DNA of 64,000 bases, taken from NCBI RefSeq assembly GCF_037392515.1, contig NC_090288.1, positions 59,753,673 to 59,817,672 of the forward strand, given 5' to 3'. This document shows positions 59 through 59,600 of the stretch, in pieces (position 1 is the first letter of the stretch; each line of letters begins with the position of its first letter). The notes under the pieces were generated by a model, which was given only the letters and a program-made list of their open reading frames with translations, was not told the origin of the DNA and searched no databases. This DNA comes from Haliotis asinina. Taxonomy: Eukaryota; Mollusca; Gastropoda; Lepetellida; Haliotidae. The position numbers were made by a program, and so were the translations under genes.

Positions 59-1253
59 TAGCTGATGTGATATATAAGTTTTGGTATCCAACTCTCAGAA
101 GTTATTGAACAGCTCACATTGACAGAAAGAGGTCCACCTCACGGCAGTGAAAATGAAAATAATTGAGTATAGAGCAGTAATTAAGTTTTAAGTTCTTGAA
201 GGAAACTCGGCGAAGAACATTGAAGAAAGGCTTTCAGCAGTTTATGGGAAGTCTTCCCCTTCATCTGCTACCATCAAACGATGGGTCAGTGAATTTAAGC
301 ATGGTAGAGAGAGTCTTGAAGATGACCCCCGTCCAGGTCGCCCAACAACAAGCACTAGTCAGGAAAACATTGACAGAGTGCATAGACTTGTGCTGGAAAA
401 TCGTCGAATCACACTCCATGAGTTAGAGGAGACCACGGGCATTTCACACGGATCCATTGAGACAATTCTTCATGAACATCTCGTCATGTCTAAGGTGTGC
501 GCAAGATGGGTGCCAAGAATGCTTACAGATGAAATAAAGCAAACAAGGGTCACCATAAGCAACTCCATGCTAACCAGATACAACAAGAATCCAGAAGATT
601 TTCACTTTAGGCTAATAACCTGTGACGAAACCTGGATCCACCACTATGACCCTGAGAGCAAACAAGAATCCATGGAATGGAAACGTATCACTTCTCCCAG
701 GACCGAAAAGTTCAAAGCCTCCAGATCAGTGGAGAAGGTAATGGCGACAGTCTTCTGGGATAGCAAAGGATTACTTACCAAAAGGAAGAACAATGAATGG
801 GGAATATTACGCTAACTTGTTGAGGCAAGTGCGACTGTCAATCAAGGAGAAGCGCCGGGGCAAGATCAGACGTGATATTCTACTACATCAAGACAATGAT
901 GTACACACCTCTCGCGTTGCAGCCGCTGCTGTCCAGGAATGCGGGTACGAAGTCTTGACGCATCCTCCCTACTCTCCAGACCTGGCACCAAGTGATTACC
1001 ATCTGTTCCCAAATCTCAAGAAACACTTGCGTGGTCGTAGATTTCAGGATGATAATGAGCTTATTGCTGCTACTGAGGCTTGGTTTGAGGACCAAAATGG
1101 CGCCTTCTACAGAGATGGCATCAGCGCCTGGCAGAAAAGATGGAACAAGTGTCTTGAGTCACAAAGGGACTATGTTGAAAAATAAATGTGGTTCATACTA
1201 ATATTTTGTGTTTTTCTATGCAAGGCTCAAAACTTATTGACATCCCCTCGTAT
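59..1253 (+). mobile_element. Decayed mariner-family DNA transposon
   Basis: A nearly full-length mariner copy. The right end reads cgaggggatgtcaataag in reverse complement; the left end (about 61-90) carries a diverged match sharing gatgt...ataagttttg. TA dinucleotides sit at both ends, as expected for mariner target duplication. The interior encodes a recognisable but broken mariner transposase. The divergence of the terminal repeats and the coding damage indicate an old, immobile copy. Confidence 0.85.
153..1185 (+). pseudogene. mariner transposase pseudogene
   Basis: The transposase would cut and paste the element through a DDD catalytic triad. The reading starts at ATG 153 (MKIIEYRAVIKF), meets an in-frame TAA at codon 13 (189-191), then stays open to about 790 through the helix-turn-helix (ATIKRWVSEF) and the first catalytic Asp (CDETWIHHYDPE). 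Around 770-790 a short deletion removes the residues before YLPKGRTMNGEYY and shifts the frame. The second half (793-1185) holds the second Asp (LLHQDN) and the third (YSPDLAPSDYHLF), spaced as in D,D34D mariners, and ends at YVEK with a TAA. One codon is also missing after HQDN. It is broken in at least three places, so not functional. Confidence 0.88.
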
Positions 1254-4119: not shown

Positions 4120-5041
4120 CAGCGCTATGTGCATATACAGGCACCGAACACACCAATGGATTGTAAAACGTCTGTGGGGAGAGAGGGGGTGGTGGTTTAT
4201 AGGTCGTACGGGGGCAAGCAATGGGCATTGGTCATTTCACCAAAATTTAGCCAATTTTGGGTGACAGTCTATTGTTACGAGGCTGTTGTCCATATTCTAT
4301 CTCACCGTTTCCCTGCAACCAACGTGTTGTACTGCTGACCATGGTAGTGGACAGAAACCAGCATGCGGACATGGTATATATGCACGGGAGAAAACAAACA
4401 CTATTCTCGCATTCTCGTTAATAACAACATGTTTCCAGAGACAGTGGGTGTCACCATAGACACGGAAGAATAACGACGCCTCCTTTGTTGCCTAAGATAT
4501 CCTTTATAATGGAACTGTCGCATTGTTCCGACAATTTCCTCGTTGTCTGAATTAATGTCTTGACAGTTTCAGGCATGGTTAAAGCTTCCTTCAAAGAGCA
4601 AAAAGCATACGAGCATATTCGCTATCCATATCAACACTGTGGACGGTATACAATTCATTACACACAGGGGAAGTGGGCAGAAGCAATTTATGTACAGGTA
4701 ACGTACATCTGTATATAACAATATATGTACAGGTAACATACCAGCAATATACGCTCATCCTTTCTGCCGCTTCTCTCAGGTGTCACTTGCACAATTAACA
4801 CTGCACCACAATCACGTGCTAAAGAATCATTATCAACTAATGGCTGTAGACTGTTAAACACAGAAAGTGGGAAGTCACAATGGAACAAGTTACACCAGTA
4901 ATAATCATGTGGTTTACCATGAAATGAGACATAATGAATCCTGCACGAAGATTATCAAGTGTCACCACTGTTGATGATGTCTGTATAAAAAGTACCACAG
5001 CGGTGGTGTAACCAGCGTCGACGTTGTTGTAGTGACTGGCG
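4120..5041. other. Region beyond the 3' end of the RPTP gene
   Basis: It should contain the RPTP 3' UTR on the minus strand. No clear canonical poly(A) signal was seen close to the stop. A short stretch at 4688-4745 has about 1.6 units of a 36-bp motif (tgtacaggtaacgtacatct) related to the minisatellite at 5797-6352. Nothing else was recognised. Confidence 0.5.
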
Positions 5042-8000
5042 CTATACGTAAGCGTTGGCGTAGATGCTGGTGGAGGTAACATACTCAGAGGCGAGCTTGT
5101 AGAGGAACCTGTAGTCATCCTGAAATAAGAAGTATACATTGTGGTAGAAGGTGTACGAGAGTATCACGTGTACCAATAATGCATGCGTTAGACAAACAAC
5201 TGAACGCAACACCGCGGACCTCTTTCCTACCTGTGAGATGTGATATGACGGTATGACAGTTTGTATCTCCCTCGCGGCGAGGAATATGGCCACGCCCGAC
5301 TGTCGTTGAAGTCGCTGGATGATGTTCCAGATGGTGCAAAACAACACGGCAGAGTGGCTGTCTGGACTGAAGGCAGAGAGGAAACATCAACTTGCTTGAT
5401 GTGGTAAAACCCTACAGCAGTAGGGGGGTTTTGGTTCCGTTGCTGTTTAAAGCACTCAGCAATATTCCATCTATATGGACTTTCTCCATAAATATTAGAT
5501 TCTGGACCAGACATTCCTGTGATCAACAGCATGAGCATCGATCTACCCAATTTACATACGATGTGTCATCCACGTCAGAGACATGACGACCCTCCATGTT
5601 AGTCGCCTCTTGAAAGCATGTGTTGCTGAAGGTTGACTCGAACCCGCATCTCCACGGGTTAAGTTTCAATATAGCCCTGCATTAACAGTACTGATCACAT
5701 TCTACGGCTGCGCACTGGCTGTATATAACAATGCTTATCTAGCCTCGTGTAAGAATTTCGAGTTTTGATTGGTCCACGTGACCCTGATAAAATACCGTGT
5801 ACATTAAAGTACCTGTTCAATATCACAAAAAACTCGTACGCGTAACGTGCCTATTGCATATCACAATGTATGTACAAGTAACGTGCCTATTGTATATAAC
5901 AATGTACGTGCAAGTAAGGTACCTGATGTGTATAACAATGTACATACGAGTAACATACGTGTTGTATATGAGAATGTACATACAAATAACGTAACAATGT
6001 AAATACAAGTAACGTACCTGTTGTATATAGCAATGTGTGTACAAGTAACGTACCTGTTGTATATAGCAATGTGTGTACAAGTAACGTACCTGTTGTATAT
6101 AGCAATGTGTGTACAAGTAACGCTCATCTGTATATAACAATGCTTGTGCAGGTAGACTACCAGCTGTATATAACAATGCTTGTGCAGGTAGACTACCAGC
6201 TGTATATAACAATGCTTGTGCAGGTAGACTACCAGCTGTATACGATAATACTGTCTGCAGCCAGTATCCTACCAGCTGTCTACAATAATACTTTCTGTAA
6301 TCATTAACCTACCAGCTGTATACAATAATACTTTCTGTAATCATTAACCTACCAGCTGTATACAATAATACTGTCAGCAGACAGGTTTCGCGAGGTCTCC
6401 AGCCTCTCCACCAACGTGAGCACGTCGCTGATTGAGTCCGTCACTGATGGAGTGGAATACAACGTCACCGTCCACGGTTTGTCTTCTTCATCGGACTGCT
6501 GTGTAAAAAACTCAGTTGCGTGGCATTAATTGTTTTAACAATTCTTTTGGTCACTTGAGACATAATAGAGAGGTGAGGTATGGTTTTTATGTAGGATTCA
6601 GTTTGGTAAAAGAACAGACTGTCTTTCGCATATTTACGCAACGGTAGCGGCAAGGGAATATAAACAGTTAGAGGAAAACATCCATCTCATGCGACACACA
6701 AGTACAACCACTTGGGAAATATCCACATATGTTGTAAAATGAGGTATAAAAATCCTGCCTATCTGCACATCAAACTGTGCTGATATGAACAAACCTGGAA
6801 AGAGAACACCTAGTCTATCAAGAAATTAAGCTGTGATGGTGGGAACTTGTTCTACCTGGGAGAAACCTAGGATGATATGAACCTATTCTACCTGGGAGAA
6901 ACCTAGGATGATATGAACCTGTTCTACCTGGGAGAAACCTAGGATGATATGAACCTGTTCTACCTGGGAGAAACCTAGGATGATATGAACCTGTTCTACC
7001 TGGGAGAAACCTAGGATGATGTGAACCTGTTCTACCTGGGAGAAACCTAGGATGATATGAACCTGTCCTACCTGGGAGAAACCTAGGATGATGTGAACCT
7101 GTTCTGCCTGGGAGAAACCTAGGATGATATGAACCTGTTCTACCTGGGAGAAACCTAGGATGATATGAACCTGTTCTACCTGAGAGAAAAATAGGATGAT
7201 ATGAACCTGTTCTACCTGGGAGAAATGTGGGAACTTGTTCTGTCTGGGAGAAACCTAGAATGGCGGGAACCTGTTTTATGGGAGAAGCCTCTGGTGACAG
7301 AACTTATTCGAAGCTGTTCGGTATGGGACAGACCCAGGGTGGTGGGAGGCTGTTCGGTATGGGACAGACCCAGGGTGGTGGGAAGCTGTTCGGTATGGGA
7401 CAGACCCAGGGTGGTGGGAAGCTGTTCGGTATGGGACAGACCCAGGGTGGTGGGAAGCTGTTCGGTATGGGACAGACCCAGGGTGGTGGGAGGCTGTTAT
7501 GCCTGGAAGAAACCCAGAATGACGGGAACCAGGTGAATGGGAGAAACCTCGGGTTGTGGGACCTTGTTCTGTATGGGAGAAAGCTAGGGTAGTGGGAACC
7601 TGTTCTGTCTTGGAGAAATCTAGGATGATTGGAACTAGTTCTGTCAGGGAGAAACCTCTGGTGACAGAACCTATTCTGTCAGGGACAAGGCTTGGGTGGT
7701 GGGAACCTGTTCTGTAAGGGACAAGGCTTGGGTGGTGGGAACCTGTTCTGTCAGGGACAAGGCTTGGGTGGTGGGAACCTGTTTCGTCGCAGTCCAGGCT
7801 ATGTATATTGTAAGGAGTGGTCAAACTGGGAATAATCAGTTACAGCGCATGCAGCGTGCAGCGTGCAGCGCATAATTACGTGCACGGGTGTTCCGGTATT
7901 TGTGTATTTTGATTAGTAGTCAAACAGGGAGGCGTCATCAAAATCCTGTGTCGGTCTTGCGTAATGCGAACCCATTCTGTCGAATTCCAACTTAGACAAA

Positions 8001-18900: not shown

Positions 18901-21900
18901 ACATTACACACAAGGTGTCAACATTACAAGCCATGCAACACATTACACACAAGGAGACAACATTACAAGCCATGCAACATATTACACACAAGGTGTCAAC
19001 ATTACAAGCCATCCAACACATTACACACAAGGAGTCAACATTACAAGCCATGCAACACATTACACACAGGGTGTCAACATTACAAGTCATCCAACACATT
19101 ACACACAAGGTGTCAACATTACAAGTCATCCAACACATTACACACAAGGTGTCAACATTACAAGCCATGCAACACATTACACACAGGGTGTCAACATTAC
19201 AAGTCATCCAACACATTACACACAAGGTGTCAACATTACAAGCCATGCAACACATTACACACAGGGTGTCAACATTACAAGTCATCCAACACATTACACA
19301 CAAGGTGTCAACATTACAAGATTTCTCCTGTCTCTGATTTTTTTGCAGGAATATTGACAACAGTAGCGTAATAATTCCACACACTCACACTTGCAAGTAA
19401 TACGAGTAATTATGTTAGGAATTGCCTTATACTCTTCATCCAACGCTCTATTCTTCAGTTTGCTTGCGATGTACTTTCCCAGTTCACATATGTCGATATC
19501 TCTATGTTCAGCTGCAGACTCCACCAAGGTCATTTCGATAGTTGTGTTAGAGGACCCACGTCTTCTCTTGGTACCTGCAGACAGAGGTTCCTTGACAATG
19601 TCAGACTTTCAGCAAATACACAACAGGACAGTAAAGATAAACATACCCTGTATGTAGGTTAATTTCTCTGAAAATATATACTAGTATCCAATACTGGTTT
19701 GATCAATGGTCAAGTCACAAGCACAAACATACAGCTGAAAAGAACAGCTGAACAAACATGTTGACGGACATATAAGGAAAAAGGAAATTATACAACCAAA
19801 GCTAAAACTGCAACATAGCCTAAATTGTTATTCGATGGCCATGCATTTTATACCTTTTAAACACGTATCATATCCAATTCGCAAGTAGACTGTCTTTTGC
19901 CAATATTCCCAAGCCAATCTGAGTGTAATAAAGGATACAAACATTACAATGTTCGGATGGTGGTGCTACAATAGGTTCTGGGACATATTCTTTTCCTCGC
20001 AATGACACGAGGGCCTGGGACAAAGATGCCTGTGTGAAACTATCTGTATGTAGTTAGGCCTACTGCCATTATATTAATTTTACTAGCGCTTCAGTTACTG
20101 TTATGTAGCATCAGTACATGATCATCTAATTATCAATCATTTGCGGTTTATATGCATAATAAAGCACTCCCCCGGTTGTGGTCGGGAAATTAGCCCGCGA
20201 CCATCAGGTGGAGAGACGTCACACCTCGAGCACTCTCGGGTCTTACCTTCCCAACCATAATCTCGGAGTCGTGCTTTATCTTACACACACTACTCACCCA
20301 CATAGTCAAATTTAAGGCACTTTACTTACATACCTTCACAGTAACACACTCACTCATCCAGTCAAATGTATCCAATCTGTACCTTACTTACATGCCTTCA
20401 CAGCAACACACTCACTCATCCAGTCAAATGTATCCAATCTGTACCTTACTTACATGCCTTCACAGTAACACACTCACTCACCCAGTCAAATGTATCCAAT
20501 CTGTACCTTACTTACATGCCTTCACAGTAACACACTCACTCATCCAGTCAAATGTATCCAATCTGTACCTTACTTACATACCTTCACAGTAACACACTCA
20601 CTCATCCAGTCAAATGTATCCAATCTGTACCTTACTTACATGCCTTCACAGTAACACACTCACTCACCCAGTCAAATGTATCCAATCTGTACCTTACTTA
20701 CATGCCTTCACAGTAACACACTCACTCAAATGTATCCAATCTGTACTTAACTTACATACGTTCACAGTAACACACTCACCCATCCGGTCGTATAACGGTC
20801 TCTTGTTGATCACCCTGCGAGAGAAACAAATAGAAGGTGCTCAAGTATTTATCTTGCAAGCTATGTAAATCCACTGGCTAGTCATACTTGGTGTCATACG
20901 TCTTGCATGATCACTAACGACAGAGTTACCACAAGTAGGAACAAAAGTGGGCCCTTATTTTCGAAACGTTCGTAGGCCAAAGAATTCGTAACTTTGATCG
21001 TAGCCAATGTGTGAAGAATGAGCTTAAGAACTTCGCAGGGCTACGAACGTTGCGAGAATAGCTACCCTGATGCTTAACCGAGGATTGTTGGGTTTGTGTC
21101 CGTGTTCATGTCAGACACCCATGTAGATGTCGTTCTAGGGCGGTCAGAACTGCTGACTCTGTCACATCTCATATCCTTGGATCAATGCTAATGATGATCA
21201 CTAGATCACTGCTCAATTATTTACAGACCATCGCCATATCGAGTGGGGTCTCCTCGTACGTTTCTGTGTGAAGGAAGTATGAAAGATGATGAAAAGACGA
21301 GAACTGAATAAGATGCATGTAGCAAATGTTTCACTTTTCGAACCTGAAAGCCTGAAAAGGTAAATGTCGCCTTTAAAATGTTATGGAAGAAATGGTATTT
21401 TATGTAAAAGCCTGAAAAAGGTAAATGTCGCCTTAAAAATGCTAAGGAAGGGATGGTATTTTATGTCATTTCTGCACTACTGATTTTATTAAACCACCTA
21501 GTCAAACCCGGATGAGAAAAGCTAGAAATGGCTGTGATATGGCTCTGTTCTGATGAATTTCGTGATAGGGAGTGGTTTGTTGTTCTGCCCTCAGTCTCTG
21601 ATCTGCCTTTCCAGTTAACATGATCTCCGTGAACAAAGTGGTAATACGGTCCACTGCTCTAGCAACATATCTCTCTTGTGTAATGACGAAAATGTGTTAT
21701 GCCAGGTAAGCCTGCACATAGTGTAAGACATGACGAAAATGTGTTATGCCAGGTAAGCCTGCAAACATTGTAAGACATGACGAAAATGTGTTATGCCAGG
21801 TAATCCTGTACACATTGTAAGGCATGACGAAACTGTGTTATGCCAGGTAATCCTGCACACATTGTAAGACATGACGAAACTGTGTTATGCCAGGTAATCC

Positions 21901-24900
21901 TGCACACATTGTAAGACATGACGAAAATGTGTTATGCCAGGTAATCCTGCACACATTGTAAGGCATGACGAAAATGTGTTATGTCAGGTAATCCTGCACA
22001 CATTGCAAGGTATGTTCTAGTGACAAACCCGTTGCTTTAAATGTTGCTTGGGACTAGACAACCTAAACCACAACCCCACACCTCTGACTTCAGTGCCACC
22101 AAGAAACGCCATGATGAATGTCTCAGCCATGGTTTACACAATGAGTATTAATCGAATGGTGGTGCAGCTTTCTCACCGGCCTCTGGTATACATAACCTGA
22201 GACCATAACGCTACCTGAGTTTGATGACGACAAGAATAGTCACCACGACAGCAAGCAGAATGGCGACTCCGATCGACACACCGACGATGACTTTAGTATC
22301 TCCCGACCCTGAAAGGTACATCGGCAGCAATGACTATTCACGATGTCGTTACTGACCCTGGTGGTTGCTTGTGAACAACTACAGGATTTCGTTAAAAAAA
22401 ACCATTGGTTTGATAGTGATGTATCAAACAAACTCTCCCTCAAAAATACAAATTCCAGAAATTCGCTTTGTATAATTGGTATGCCCAGTATATGTTTATA
22501 TTCGTGATTCTGGAAGTCAGTGGACATGTCAGCGTTTTCAGTCAAGGGATGAAGTAAAGCTTGTTAAAATCATCAACAAGTCCAGACCTATTAACATCGA
22601 ATATCCTAGTCGGATTCATGGAAATTAATTTTGCTGCATTGATACCTCTTTTGAAGACCATAGTGACATTAAGGCCGCTTGTAAGCAGTGAACTATCAAT
22701 TTCATAATATCATAATTATCAATGCAGTTATTTCTACTCCAGTAGGAACATATATTGAGGTCTTGCTTAATCATCTGGTCTCACCTGTCTGTTCTGAAGG
22801 CGATGTTGGTAGAATTGTTGGTGATGTCTGTGTTGACAATGGCGGAGTCGTGGTGGAAGCAGTTGGTATTGTTGTGACTGTTGTAACAGATGTTGACCCG
22901 GACGGTAACATTGTTCCGGTTGATGATGGTATGGATTTTGATGGTGGAAATGTTGACGCTGTTGTGCCTGTTGTAACAGATTTTGACCCGGACGGTAACA
23001 TTGTACCGGTTGATGATGGTAAGGATTTTGATGGTGGAAATGTTGACGCTGATGAAGATGTTGATGTTGATGTTGGAACCAGTGATGACAATGCAGATGC
23101 TGTTTGAGTAAATGTTGAAGTCGTGTGTGAAACTGATATTGTCGGTAACATTAAACTAAATGTTGACACGATGTCGGGTAACGTCAAAGATCCTGATGTC
23201 GCCAAAGGCACCTGTGACAACGATGTTGGTAATGGCATCAGTGATGAAAATGTTGCAGACGATCTAAGTGACGTCTTTTCTGCTGTAGAAGCCAATGACG
23301 ATGACATTCCTGATGGCATCAGTGTTGGGGATGATGCTGCAGACGCCAGCGACGATGACTTTTCAGATGCTGCTTGTGACGTCAATGGCTCTATAGACGC
23401 CTGTGAGGACGTTTCTGATGGCAACATTGATAACGGTGATGGTACAGACGCCATGGATGTTGGGGATGATGCTGTAGACGCCAGCGACGATGACTTTTCA
23501 GATGCTGCTTGTGACGTCAATGCCTCTATAGACGCCTGTGAGGACGTTTCTGATGGCAACATTGATAACGGTGATGGTACAGACGCCATGGATGTTGGGG
23601 ATGATGCTGTAGACGCCAGCGACGATGACATTTCAGATGCTGCTTGTGACGTCGATGCCTCTATAGACGCCTGTGAGGACGTTTCTGATGGCAACATTGA
23701 TAACGGTGATGGTACAGACGCCATGGATGATGACGATGACGATGATGATGACGATGACGATGATGATGAGGATGAGGAGAAGGATACTAGTGACGCCGAT
23801 GTTGCTGTAGATGCCAATGAGGCGGTTTCTGATGGCAACAGTGATGACGATGATGCTACAGACACCAGTGACGACGGTGTTCTTGCTGTTACCAGTGGCG
23901 ACGATGTTGCTGATGTTCCAAGTGATGACAATGTTGTCCGTTGTAAACTGTCTGGTGATATTGTCAGAGAATGCGTTTGTTCTGAGAGGATAACAGTGGT
24001 TGTTGCAGTTTCCGCTGATGACGCTACTGCAGTCGCTGGCAAATGTGTATCATCAATGGATCCTTCCTTAGAATCTTTTAAAAAATATTTAAGAGCATTT
24101 TACTATGTAGACAATAAATGCTGAAACATGCTTGGACCAACACATAGCTAAATGGTTTAAAGAAAATGTAATTTAACAATATAATAACTTGTTTTTAAAA
24201 GGTACAAAGTCAACGTTTTGACAAAATTTCAAAATCGAACAAATTTAGGTGACAACATAACCGTCAGTTAATAGTTAGTCACGCAACAGTAATATTATCA
24301 TTTCAAGTATATATTCATGTTAAACCCTGTACAAGTTTCAAGCTGTGAGGTGTTTCGCAAACATGCAGATCGTACTTTTTGAAATGGAAAGGCGCTGAAC
24401 CCCGCTTTAACGACCATTGCTCTTACATAGCGACGTGCAGGAGGAGCGCATGTGTGATTGCTGGCACCAGCCAAGACCAAAGCCTGGGTTATTGTGCTCA
24501 CAGACAGCGATACCATGTAGTAGGTAAACATTGATATTCCGCTCATACACATTCTGCTCCCGAGAAAACCATTCCTTGTTTTAACTCTTTAATCATCATA
24601 AGATGGCCACCTTTTCATGAGACAACTAGGTATCAAAACCAAACCTTCCTCCCGTTGCGACTTATACACTGTACTCACCAAACACCGGCTTCCATTACAG
24701 GCAGCATTTGTTGATGGTCTGTGCGTATCCAGGACGTGCTGTAATGGGAACTGAAGCATCCACACACCTGAGAGTGTTTCGTGTTACTGATCACAGGAGC
24801 AGCTACACACCTGAGCCTCATTGTGTTACTGATTACAGGAGCAGCTACCCACCTGAGTGTTCTTCCGTTACTGACTACCGTGACATGTAGCTACCCACCT

Positions 24901-56600: not shown

Positions 56601-59600
56601 CAAGCATTATGTTCTTTTGTGTGTCCTTCGTCAAATGAAAGGAGCCACAGGAGCTTGTATTGCTGGGCCTAATTTTTCGAAGCTCACTTAGCGCTAAGAT
56701 TGTTGTAAGGTAACGTTAATGAATGGTACTTACGACTATCTTAGCGCTATGAGAGCTTCGAAAATATAGGCCCTGGACCCTACACTACTTCTTTTGTACG
56801 TAGATGGCTGTCAGTGAACAAATGTAGCACCCAGAACGTAATATTTTCAGCAATACAAGCCCCTGTAAATGGAGCGCAATACCTGTACCGACTCAGCTTA
56901 ATCTTGTTTTAAATTGATGTCAATAAAATGGCAAGAATGATATCAATAAAAGTCTCTGTGTGATGCAATGTTAAATAAAGGCATTACCTCACTAACACTG
57001 TGAATGTGTGTATATCACAGCAGCCCCATCAACGTGCACGCCTTCACAGTAGCAGACAGCTCGACGGAATCCATTGGCAACATCAACCAAGACAAGACGT
57101 TCTTGACGTCGTCACAGACGCTGCAGTTCTTCTCTACGGATCCCCAGGGCTCCCCCTCGGCTGCTGTCACAGGTTAGAAGTCACCCTCCCTTCCGCTTAC
57201 CTTGTATCTTGAAACACATTAACCTGGACTAATCAAACACAAAGGAAGCTGTGGTGGTGGCTGAGCGGGTTAGACGGCCGACTTTGTAAGCTGACAATTA
57301 GGTGCCTCACTCTGAGGGTTTGGGTTCAAATTCTGGTCGGGACTCAACGCAAGAAAAAGTACTAGAATCTGCACTTTACCAAGAAAGTGTAATGCCAAAT
57401 ATAGCTTTAGCATATGTTAATTTTCATCACTTTCGAAATGGAATTGTGTATTCAAAGAATAGAAGAGTTTATGGTTTTGACACCACCCCCATGTTCTTGG
57501 TTGCCACAGGAGTGTAGAACGTCTGATACCGGGGTCTTTCTTTCCATATTAAGCTGACATAACTTGATGTAAATAAAACACAATCCCTCACTCAATTGAA
57601 GACTTGATAGCGACACAGAGTGTCACTTCTGTTAGGTTCCCGTGTTTCATGCTTTGACAAATTGGTCTGGTACTTGTCTCCCTCATGGACTCACAACATA
57701 CCCCCCTCTCACTTGAAGACTCGGTAGAGGCATGGAGTGTTACTTCAGATAGGCTCCTATGTTTTAGCTTTTTCATACGTCGGGTACATGTATTCCAGGA
57801 GGTAATCTGAACGCATTCGGCATCTCCTCCGTGATCCCATACTACCAGGTCAACACTCCCTGGGCACAGACGCCCGAAGGCATCGCCGTCCTCACATTCA
57901 TCTCCTTCGTCATCCTCGCCCTCATCATCACCAGCATCGTTGTAACCATCGTCGCGTGTCGGAAGAGACAGAGGTAAGCTCAAATCACATCGCTGGTCTG
58001 TAGTCTGGGGTAGGTCTTCGCGGTCACGTGACAGTGGTAAGTCTAGGGTGTACGAGGTCACATGGCATGCCAGTGGTAAGTCTAGGGTGTACGTGATCAG
58101 ATGACATGGCAGCAGTATGTCTGGGGTGTACCCGGTCAGATGACATGGCAGCAGTATGTGTGGGGTGTACGCGGTCAGATGACATGGCAGCAGTATGTGT
58201 GGGGTGTACGCGGTCAGATGACATGGCAGCAGTATGTGTGGGGTGTACGCGGTCAGATGACATGGCAGCAGTATGCCTGGGGTGTACGCGGTCAGATGAC
58301 ATGGCAGCAGTATGTCTGGGGTGTACGCGGTCAGATGACATGGCAACAGTATGCCTGGGGTGTACGCGGTCAGATGACATGGCAGCAGTATGTCTGGGGT
58401 GTACGCGGTCAGATGACATGGCAGCAGTATGTCTGCGATGTACGCGGTCAGATGACATGGCAGCAGTATGTCTGGGGTGTACGCGGTCAGATGAAATGGC
58501 AGCAGTATGTCTGGGGTGTACGCGGTCACACGCCATTACAACAGCGAGCCTCTGGTGTATGCCAACACATGAAAAAGTAAATGGTATGTTGTGTCTACAT
58601 ATGCGTGGCATGACATTGCTTATATAGAGTTCTCCCTTTATACTTCCTAACATTTCACATTGTAGTGTTTCTGGGATTACACGTCATTTCACATTGCAGG
58701 CCAATAACACCCGTCCGCGCAGCGAAGCGAGCCAAACCTCAGCCCACTGAAAAGTTCTCTTACAGAGGTAAAGCCCACCAACCACATTTATAACATTATT
58801 TACATACCATGGTTCACATGTCACGACAGATAACTCGTGATTACAAGGCGGGTGTATCTTGTTCTGTTCTGCTTCCATGTGGTATCAGTTACATCTCATT
58901 ATCTCACTGAAACTGTGATCATGTTGTGGAGAATTTATGAAAAGGGGAAACAGTATCAGGACCACCAAGTGCTACTTCAAATGTAATACCGTTTTCCGTA
59001 CTTGATAGTTCTGTTCCATGTACATATAATCTGCACTGTGGCACAATATGAGGCAGATAAGCGATCAGTAAATGTCTCTACACATTTCCATCTGTGTATC
59101 TTATTTGTTCCAGATGATGATGAGATCTACAGATCAAAGACCCCGCCCCCTGTGAGTAGTGTTTCATTGTAATATCATGATGTAAGTGTACCTTTTCATC
59201 CAAGTGAGGGGGGTTGTGGGGTAGCGTAGTGATTAAAGCGTCCTTTCGTCACGCCGACGACCCGGGTTCGATTCCCCACATGGGTACGATGTGTGAAGCC
59301 CATTTCTAGTGCCCCCCTAGCCATGATATTGCTGGACTATTGCTAAGTGCTGCGTAAAACCTGTCTAACTTACTCATTCATCCAAGACAGATACGAACAT
59401 AACATCATCCTTGTCCTGTACATAACATGGTCGTATCCCACGCTCTTTGTCAGGCGTATTCCGAGAAGCCACGCCCGATGAAAGCCGGCGAAGATGGCGT
59501 GGCAAGCATGTACAATTCATCAAGGTCAAGGTTGTCCAACAGAGACTTCGACGGTCGTGCTGTGGATCCGGGTAACGGTTGAATGTTATTCACATCTCCT

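Follow-up and report, generated by a model that had tools for sequence, protein, structure and literature searches.

Poison exons and alternative donors are familiar splicing switches coupled to nonsense-mediated decay (NMD), in which splicing at the alternative site introduces a premature stop ahead of later junctions. Repeated donors adjoining an exon are known from the human gene IFI6 (G1P3), whose minisatellite was reportedly studied by Turri in 1995 and presumably consists of about 26 copies of a 12 bp unit at an exon boundary. Two downstream repeat units of this minisatellite are described as being used as donors, which results in three mRNA species (PMC4526556). More broadly, tandem genomic (or internal gene) duplication is presented as a recognised source of splice sites and as a route of intron gain in a review that cites Gao & Lynch 2009 and Hellsten 2011 on duplication-derived splice sites (PMC3443670).

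Here we describe a minisatellite that repeats the end of an exon together with its splice donor, located in a 64,000-nucleotide stretch of DNA (hereafter the window; contig C9:59753673–59817672) within a genome of 1.143 Gb in 159 contigs. We consider it very probable that a tandem duplication of the exon tail and donor was expanded within the intron, with the exon copy staying the donor and the other copies being tolerated as decoys.

Host gene

On the minus strand, the region carries the final exons of a gene for a receptor-type protein tyrosine phosphatase. Exon numbers 20 and 21 are those of an earlier, sequence-only reading of this DNA, and "exon 20" here denotes the third-last coding exon:

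Within 11725–11480, minus strand: D1 catalytic exon, matching PF00102 with an E value of 9e-11
6353..6498, minus strand: third-last coding exon (exon 20), in D2, with a phase-2 end and its acceptor at 6498 or 6495
6352–5367, minus strand: intron after exon 20, 986 bp, GT…AG
5231..5366, minus strand: next exon (exon 21), which completes TG|T (Cys) and continues PDSHSAVLFC...
5042..5119, minus strand: last coding exon, ending ...YANAYV-stop

When joined, the three D2 exons (6498–6353, 5366–5231 and 5119–5042) yield one open frame through to the terminal YANAYV-stop, and this product of exons 20-22 matches PF00102 positions 145–232 with an E value of 3e-4 and 20.8 bits, just under the curated cut-off of 20.9. 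The order of D1 and D2 is, we assume, that of receptor-type phosphatases. The D2 sequence in exon 20 extends as far as the catalytic-Cys position, which is occupied by Ser here (IIVYS, compared by eye with IIIHC in paralogue L034), so that D2 is probably a pseudophosphatase. The same genome holds at least 160 tyrosine-phosphatase exon matches (150 of 465 candidates were scored), many of those listed being on contigs C7 and C9.

Structure of the array

Exon 20 ends in phase 2 at TG| (...GACAGTATTATTGTATACAGCTG|GTAGGTTAA, minus strand, 6353|6352), and the first bases of the intron are the start of a 571-bp array (6352-5782, minus) made up of 14 junction-aligned units and a remnant of 31 bp. The array and its outlying pieces, with units numbered from the exon, are as follows:

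6347..6352, minus strand: true donor, CTG|GTAGGT, with a U1 snRNA duplex energy of -8.8 kcal/mol
6233..6352, minus strand: units U1-U3, three 40-bp units of exon tail and donor
6125..6232, minus strand: units U4-U6, 36-bp units with CTG|GTAGTC (weak, -4.8)
5813..6124, minus strand: units U7-U14, diverged, 35–59 bp
5782..5812, minus strand: unit U15, the last partial unit, a 31-bp remnant
5718..5736, minus strand: detached piece of a U4-type unit beyond the array, 19/19 identical
4682..4751, minus strand: 70-bp fragment with 80% identity to about two units, lying ~290 bp beyond this gene's stop codon

The tandem repeat starts at the exon–intron boundary itself and repeats the donor, each unit being built on contiguous exon tail (the last ~32 nt of exon 20) and intron head. 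Three units of 40 bp are followed by units of mostly 36 bp, with U7 at 35 bp, U8-U9 at 36 bp, U11-U14 at 36-38 bp and a fused unit, U10, at 59 bp. U1 and U2 differ by a single base. U3 matches the last 32 nt of the exon at 29 positions and the preceding 8 nt at only 2/8, which indicates that the original 40-bp unit consisted of ~32 exon nt and ~8 intron nt, donor included. Farther from the exon, the junctions of U7-U14 include three CAG|GTACGT (-7.9 kcal/mol), one CAG|GTACCT and one CAG|GTACTT (both -7.1), and two with GC; U8-U9 carry ACAACAG|GTACGTT.

Identity to the last 20 nt of the exon falls along the array from U1 to U14 (20, 19, 19, 17, 17, 16, 12, 12, 12, 11, 12, 12, 10 and 10 nt; Spearman -0.95 against distance, the P value of which overstates the case as neighbouring units are not independent). 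Cutting the array at the junction register bears out what the sequence-only reading had described, in sequence as in coordinates: the end of exon 20 and its donor repeated on the minus strand, first as three 40-bp units, then as 36-bp units, with a distal drift to CAG|GTACGT-type junctions and a dozen or more donor-like copies in the same direction (here 14 after the true donor, 11 of them with GT).

Origin of the array

Paralogues encoded in the same genome provide a view of the exon 20 junction without the array. A motif scan of nine paralogue stretches listed nine sites, five of which (L030, L031, L032, L033 and L034) were taken as exon-20 homologues, defined by the form ...HC + 2 nt | GT at 254-855 bp before exon 21. 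The other four sites (L027 9141, L030 6480, L031 6721 and L032 6875) did not fit …HC| and were left out, and the scan found no exon-20 junction of the defined form in four of the nine stretches. At all five homologous junctions, which represent about three lineages since L030-L032 are near copies of each other, the intron has the same position and phase 2 as here, and none (0/5) shows an exon-derived repeat. The absence of the array from these five homologous introns is consistent with a derived state.

The unit was also sought across the 1.14-Gb genome. A DNA search with the whole array returned no match beyond the array itself and the 4682-4751 fragment; this search leaves out very common words, and the absence elsewhere is therefore not absolute. 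A 24-mer unit pattern allowing up to three mismatches occurred at five places, all inside the array, compared with one for a backwards control. A 23-mer junction pattern was found at the exon junction and in three units here, and at three places elsewhere with three mismatches, compared with 20 for its control. As far as the genome was searched, the array unit is private to this gene, and a dispersed-repeat origin is rejected, as no copies were seen elsewhere above control.

Taken together, the paralogue junctions without the repeat, the identity gradient and the confinement of the unit to this gene place the exon first, with copying from exon to array, and the end of exon 20 is likely the seed of the array and older than it. 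The exon boundary had been proposed as the apparent seed from the sequence alone, and both the U3 match pattern and the lack of an exon-derived repeat at the five paralogous junctions support that proposal. We consider the reverse course, by which a satellite that was already present or dispersed came to lie next to the exon and then overwrote its end, to be very unlikely. It would account for the unit fragments that this gene carries apart from the array (4682-4751 and 5718-5736), and for distal units that are donor-like in their own right. The exon 20 tail, however, codes for the strand before the catalytic loop and aligns by eye without a gap to the same phosphatase strand in the paralogues (IIVYS vs IIIHC, L034), the intron interrupting the same codon in the same phase, while the joined exons match PF00102 and the unit does not occur elsewhere in the genome above control.

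Under an expansion from the exon end, a simple age order of units is imperfect, because the U4-type 19-nt piece at 5718-5736 sits beyond the oldest-looking units. The distal CAG|GTACGT form is closer to the usual donor consensus than CTG|GTAGGT; it may be an older junction or a product of exchange between copies and, given that closeness, the exon end could itself have been converted by array units.

Decoy donors and their predicted consequences

Among the 15 junctions, the true donor alone keeps the frame, and this outermost (upstream) copy would for that reason remain the working donor. Scored unit by unit, the 14 copies that follow fit their earlier description as donor-like, with 11 keeping GT (two have GC and one AG) and half pairing well with U1 snRNA. 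Duplex energies, computed with the 5' end of U1, were −8.8 and −7.7 kcal/mol for the first and second decoys; three distal decoys had −7.9, two more −7.1, and the other seven were weaker (−1.5 to −4.8), the true donor of exon 21 reaching −10.7. The first decoy, at +40, is the same as the true donor from -3 to +8 and over 20 nt upstream, and the second, at +80, reads GTAGGA. Seven of the 14 decoys lie at or below -7.1, a level reached by 3.4% of the 9266 GT sites in the window; seven such sites fall in the 571-bp array and none in the remaining 415 bp of intron, whereas the two strands of the window (128 kb) have 317.

In computed translations, every decoy (14/14), if used, gives ...DSIIVYSW-stop, because TG|GTAG reads Trp-stop (TGG TAG), and the stop is located 172-672 nt before the last exon junction. 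The NMD distance rule applies to transcripts whose premature stop precedes the last junction by more than ~50 nt, and this distance is exceeded throughout. Decoy use, or retention of the intron, would thus bring in the immediate TGG TAG and remove the last ~70 residues, and NMD of the mRNAs made with a decoy would be expected. The sequence-only reading had foreseen either in-frame or stop-containing additions from decoy use: the stop-containing outcome holds for all 14 decoys, whereas the in-frame one fails, since decoys with this uniform outcome cannot add in-frame sequence, and no in-frame isoform of the IFI6 type is predicted for any of them (0/14).

An alternative reading is a functional decoy array, whose copies would bind U1 snRNP and siphon splicing to a poison product, with copy number tuning the receptor via NMD. 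The shared early stop of all 14 decoys ahead of the last junction agrees with this idea, as does the presence of seven decoys at or below -7.1 in an intron that has no such site elsewhere, yet the density of decoys follows from donor copying itself. Three of the 14 decoy junctions are, moreover, no longer GT. The GT columns of the junction register (G kept in 13/14 units, T in 11/14) are not conserved above the level of the unit's other columns, the last 20 columns having a median of 11.5 and five columns being kept in 14/14, and selection for donors hence gets no support. We regard a functional decoy array as very unlikely. Recursive-splice ratchet points, another candidate raised by the CAG|GT of distal units, were set aside after inspection revealed no pyrimidine tract. 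Overall, the array is most likely a tolerated by-product, with some leaky, NMD-prone use of decoys predicted, and we make no claim of a function for it from the present data.

Exon-tail repeats here and in paralogues

The last 40 nt of exon 20 aligned to the intron with a score of 49, compared with a mean of 18.4 and a maximum of 29 in 1000 dinucleotide-preserving shuffles, and the similarity between exon end and units on which the sequence-only reading depended is therefore present. Ten exon windows ending at least 25 nt upstream of the exon end scored 14-17, and those ending 15 and 5 nt upstream scored 24 and 39; with high scores found near the exon end alone, the repeated part of the exon is its tail only. 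That a short AT-rich motif matches by chance, to which the 10-12 of 20 nt shared between distal units and exon tail might point, is refuted by the shuffles and by units that begin at the exon end with zero gap, and can be dismissed.

Three paralogues, located on this contig at a distance of ~1.0–1.2 Mb, carry an array in which the tail of exon 21 and its donor form the unit of a 55-bp repeat in the following intron (intron 21):

L027, 8089-8342: 55-bp minisatellite, 4.6 copies
L028, 8743-9098: 55-bp minisatellite, 6.5 copies
L029, 8154-9275: 55-bp minisatellite, 20.4 copies

The exon 21 tail scored 32, 43 and 37 against the intron in L027, L028 and L029, where the highest of 300 single-letter shuffles reached 25, 26 and 25. 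GTGAGT is kept by 17 of 19 junctions in L029 among those pattern-listed from +223 on; most units among the matches listed for L028 are without GTGAGT and have weaker forms such as GTAAAT. Since exon and unit both differ from those in the window, this array represents a separate event, common to the three paralogues.

A survey of 50 phosphatase exons with flanks of up to 1.5 kb, in which likeness meant a score reached by 0 of 500 shuffles, found exon-tail likeness in 4/12 downstream arrays and exon-head likeness in 0/17 upstream ones (Fisher 0.02). The four positives correspond to two independent events, one being the ascertained case of the window, and if L027–L029 are taken as one case and the window hit is removed, the counts become 1/9 vs 0/17 (P 0.35), which does not establish a donor bias. 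These counts include some exon limits that are ends of profile matches instead of splice sites (the L064 match contains an intron), several exons that are near-identical paralogues, and some arrays counted for two neighbouring exons. TRF also divides the window array in two, the second part failing to score against the exon tail (its score was reached by 89/500 shuffles). A BLAST self-match of 30 loci cut for PF00102 gave a single hit, located where the L064 match runs through intron. In the 64-kb window, TRF reported 52 rows, some overlapping, and minisatellites this dense will span some junctions by chance.

A donor-spanning duplication leaves an intact upstream copy and may, we infer, be easily tolerated. 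That exon tails and donors are recurrent minisatellite seeds in this genome, producing rows of poison decoys whose copy number sets NMD loss, is a broader idea that we hold to be unlikely; if recurrent seeding were true, introns would grow by copying their own 5' junction.

Other repeats in the window

Several further repeats were noted in the window. The intron preceding exon 20 holds two look-alike 36-bp arrays (6843-7225 and 7310-7783), the first with 10 donor-like CAG|GTAGRAYA sites on the minus strand and no link to an exon seen. On the plus strand, a 47-bp array at 21683-22009 has seven donor-like sites (CAG|GTAAGCC or CAG|GTAATCC), and tandem repeats of 90, 135 and 27 bp at 22870-23935 look protein-coding and acidic by inspection. 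A 39-bp array at 58022-58528 (plus strand) starts ~50 bp past a transmembrane-like exon (end 57973), and its first units, CAGTG|GTAAGT, are weakly like the exon end CAGAG|GTAAGC. Its alignment to the exon tail is weak (P 0.019 from 2000 shuffles, without multiple-test correction), and we do not claim it as a third exon-seeded case. Overlapping open frames at 181-1185 (plus strand) presumably resemble a mariner-type transposase, and a SINE-like stretch near 1490–1660 is, we assume, of an abalone type.

Proposed course and comparison with known systems

In the course that we favour, a tandem duplication of ~40 bp would have spanned the junction, copying ~32 nt of exon end and ~8 nt of intron start, including the donor, and repeated unequal exchange or slippage would have grown the array within the intron, so that the units closest to the exon are the younger ones and those farther off are older and diverged. 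Selection on the exon would hold the upstream copy, and the remaining copies would drift as decoy donors. This gene illustrates how a minisatellite can be seeded by an exon–intron junction; a like event occurred separately in paralogues. The +40 decoy provides a natural test of donor choice, in which any preference for the first donor must come from position or from sequence farther away. If array copy number varies, it would also be a measurable source of splicing noise.

Several known systems share features with this locus. As in NMD-coupled switches, use of a decoy is predicted to place a premature stop before later junctions. As in tandem genomic duplication, splice-site sequence is copied along when a short segment is duplicated; unlike there, no new intron results, and the copies pile up in an old intron, repeated into an array. 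In both IFI6 and the gene described here, a minisatellite with donor-bearing units adjoins an exon, the likeness here being one of anatomy alone. The extra donors of IFI6 lead to protein isoforms, whereas every decoy here is predicted to lead to a stop. By analogy of structure, human IFI6/G1P3 is the closest known case, and the array described here appears to be of a kind that is already known.
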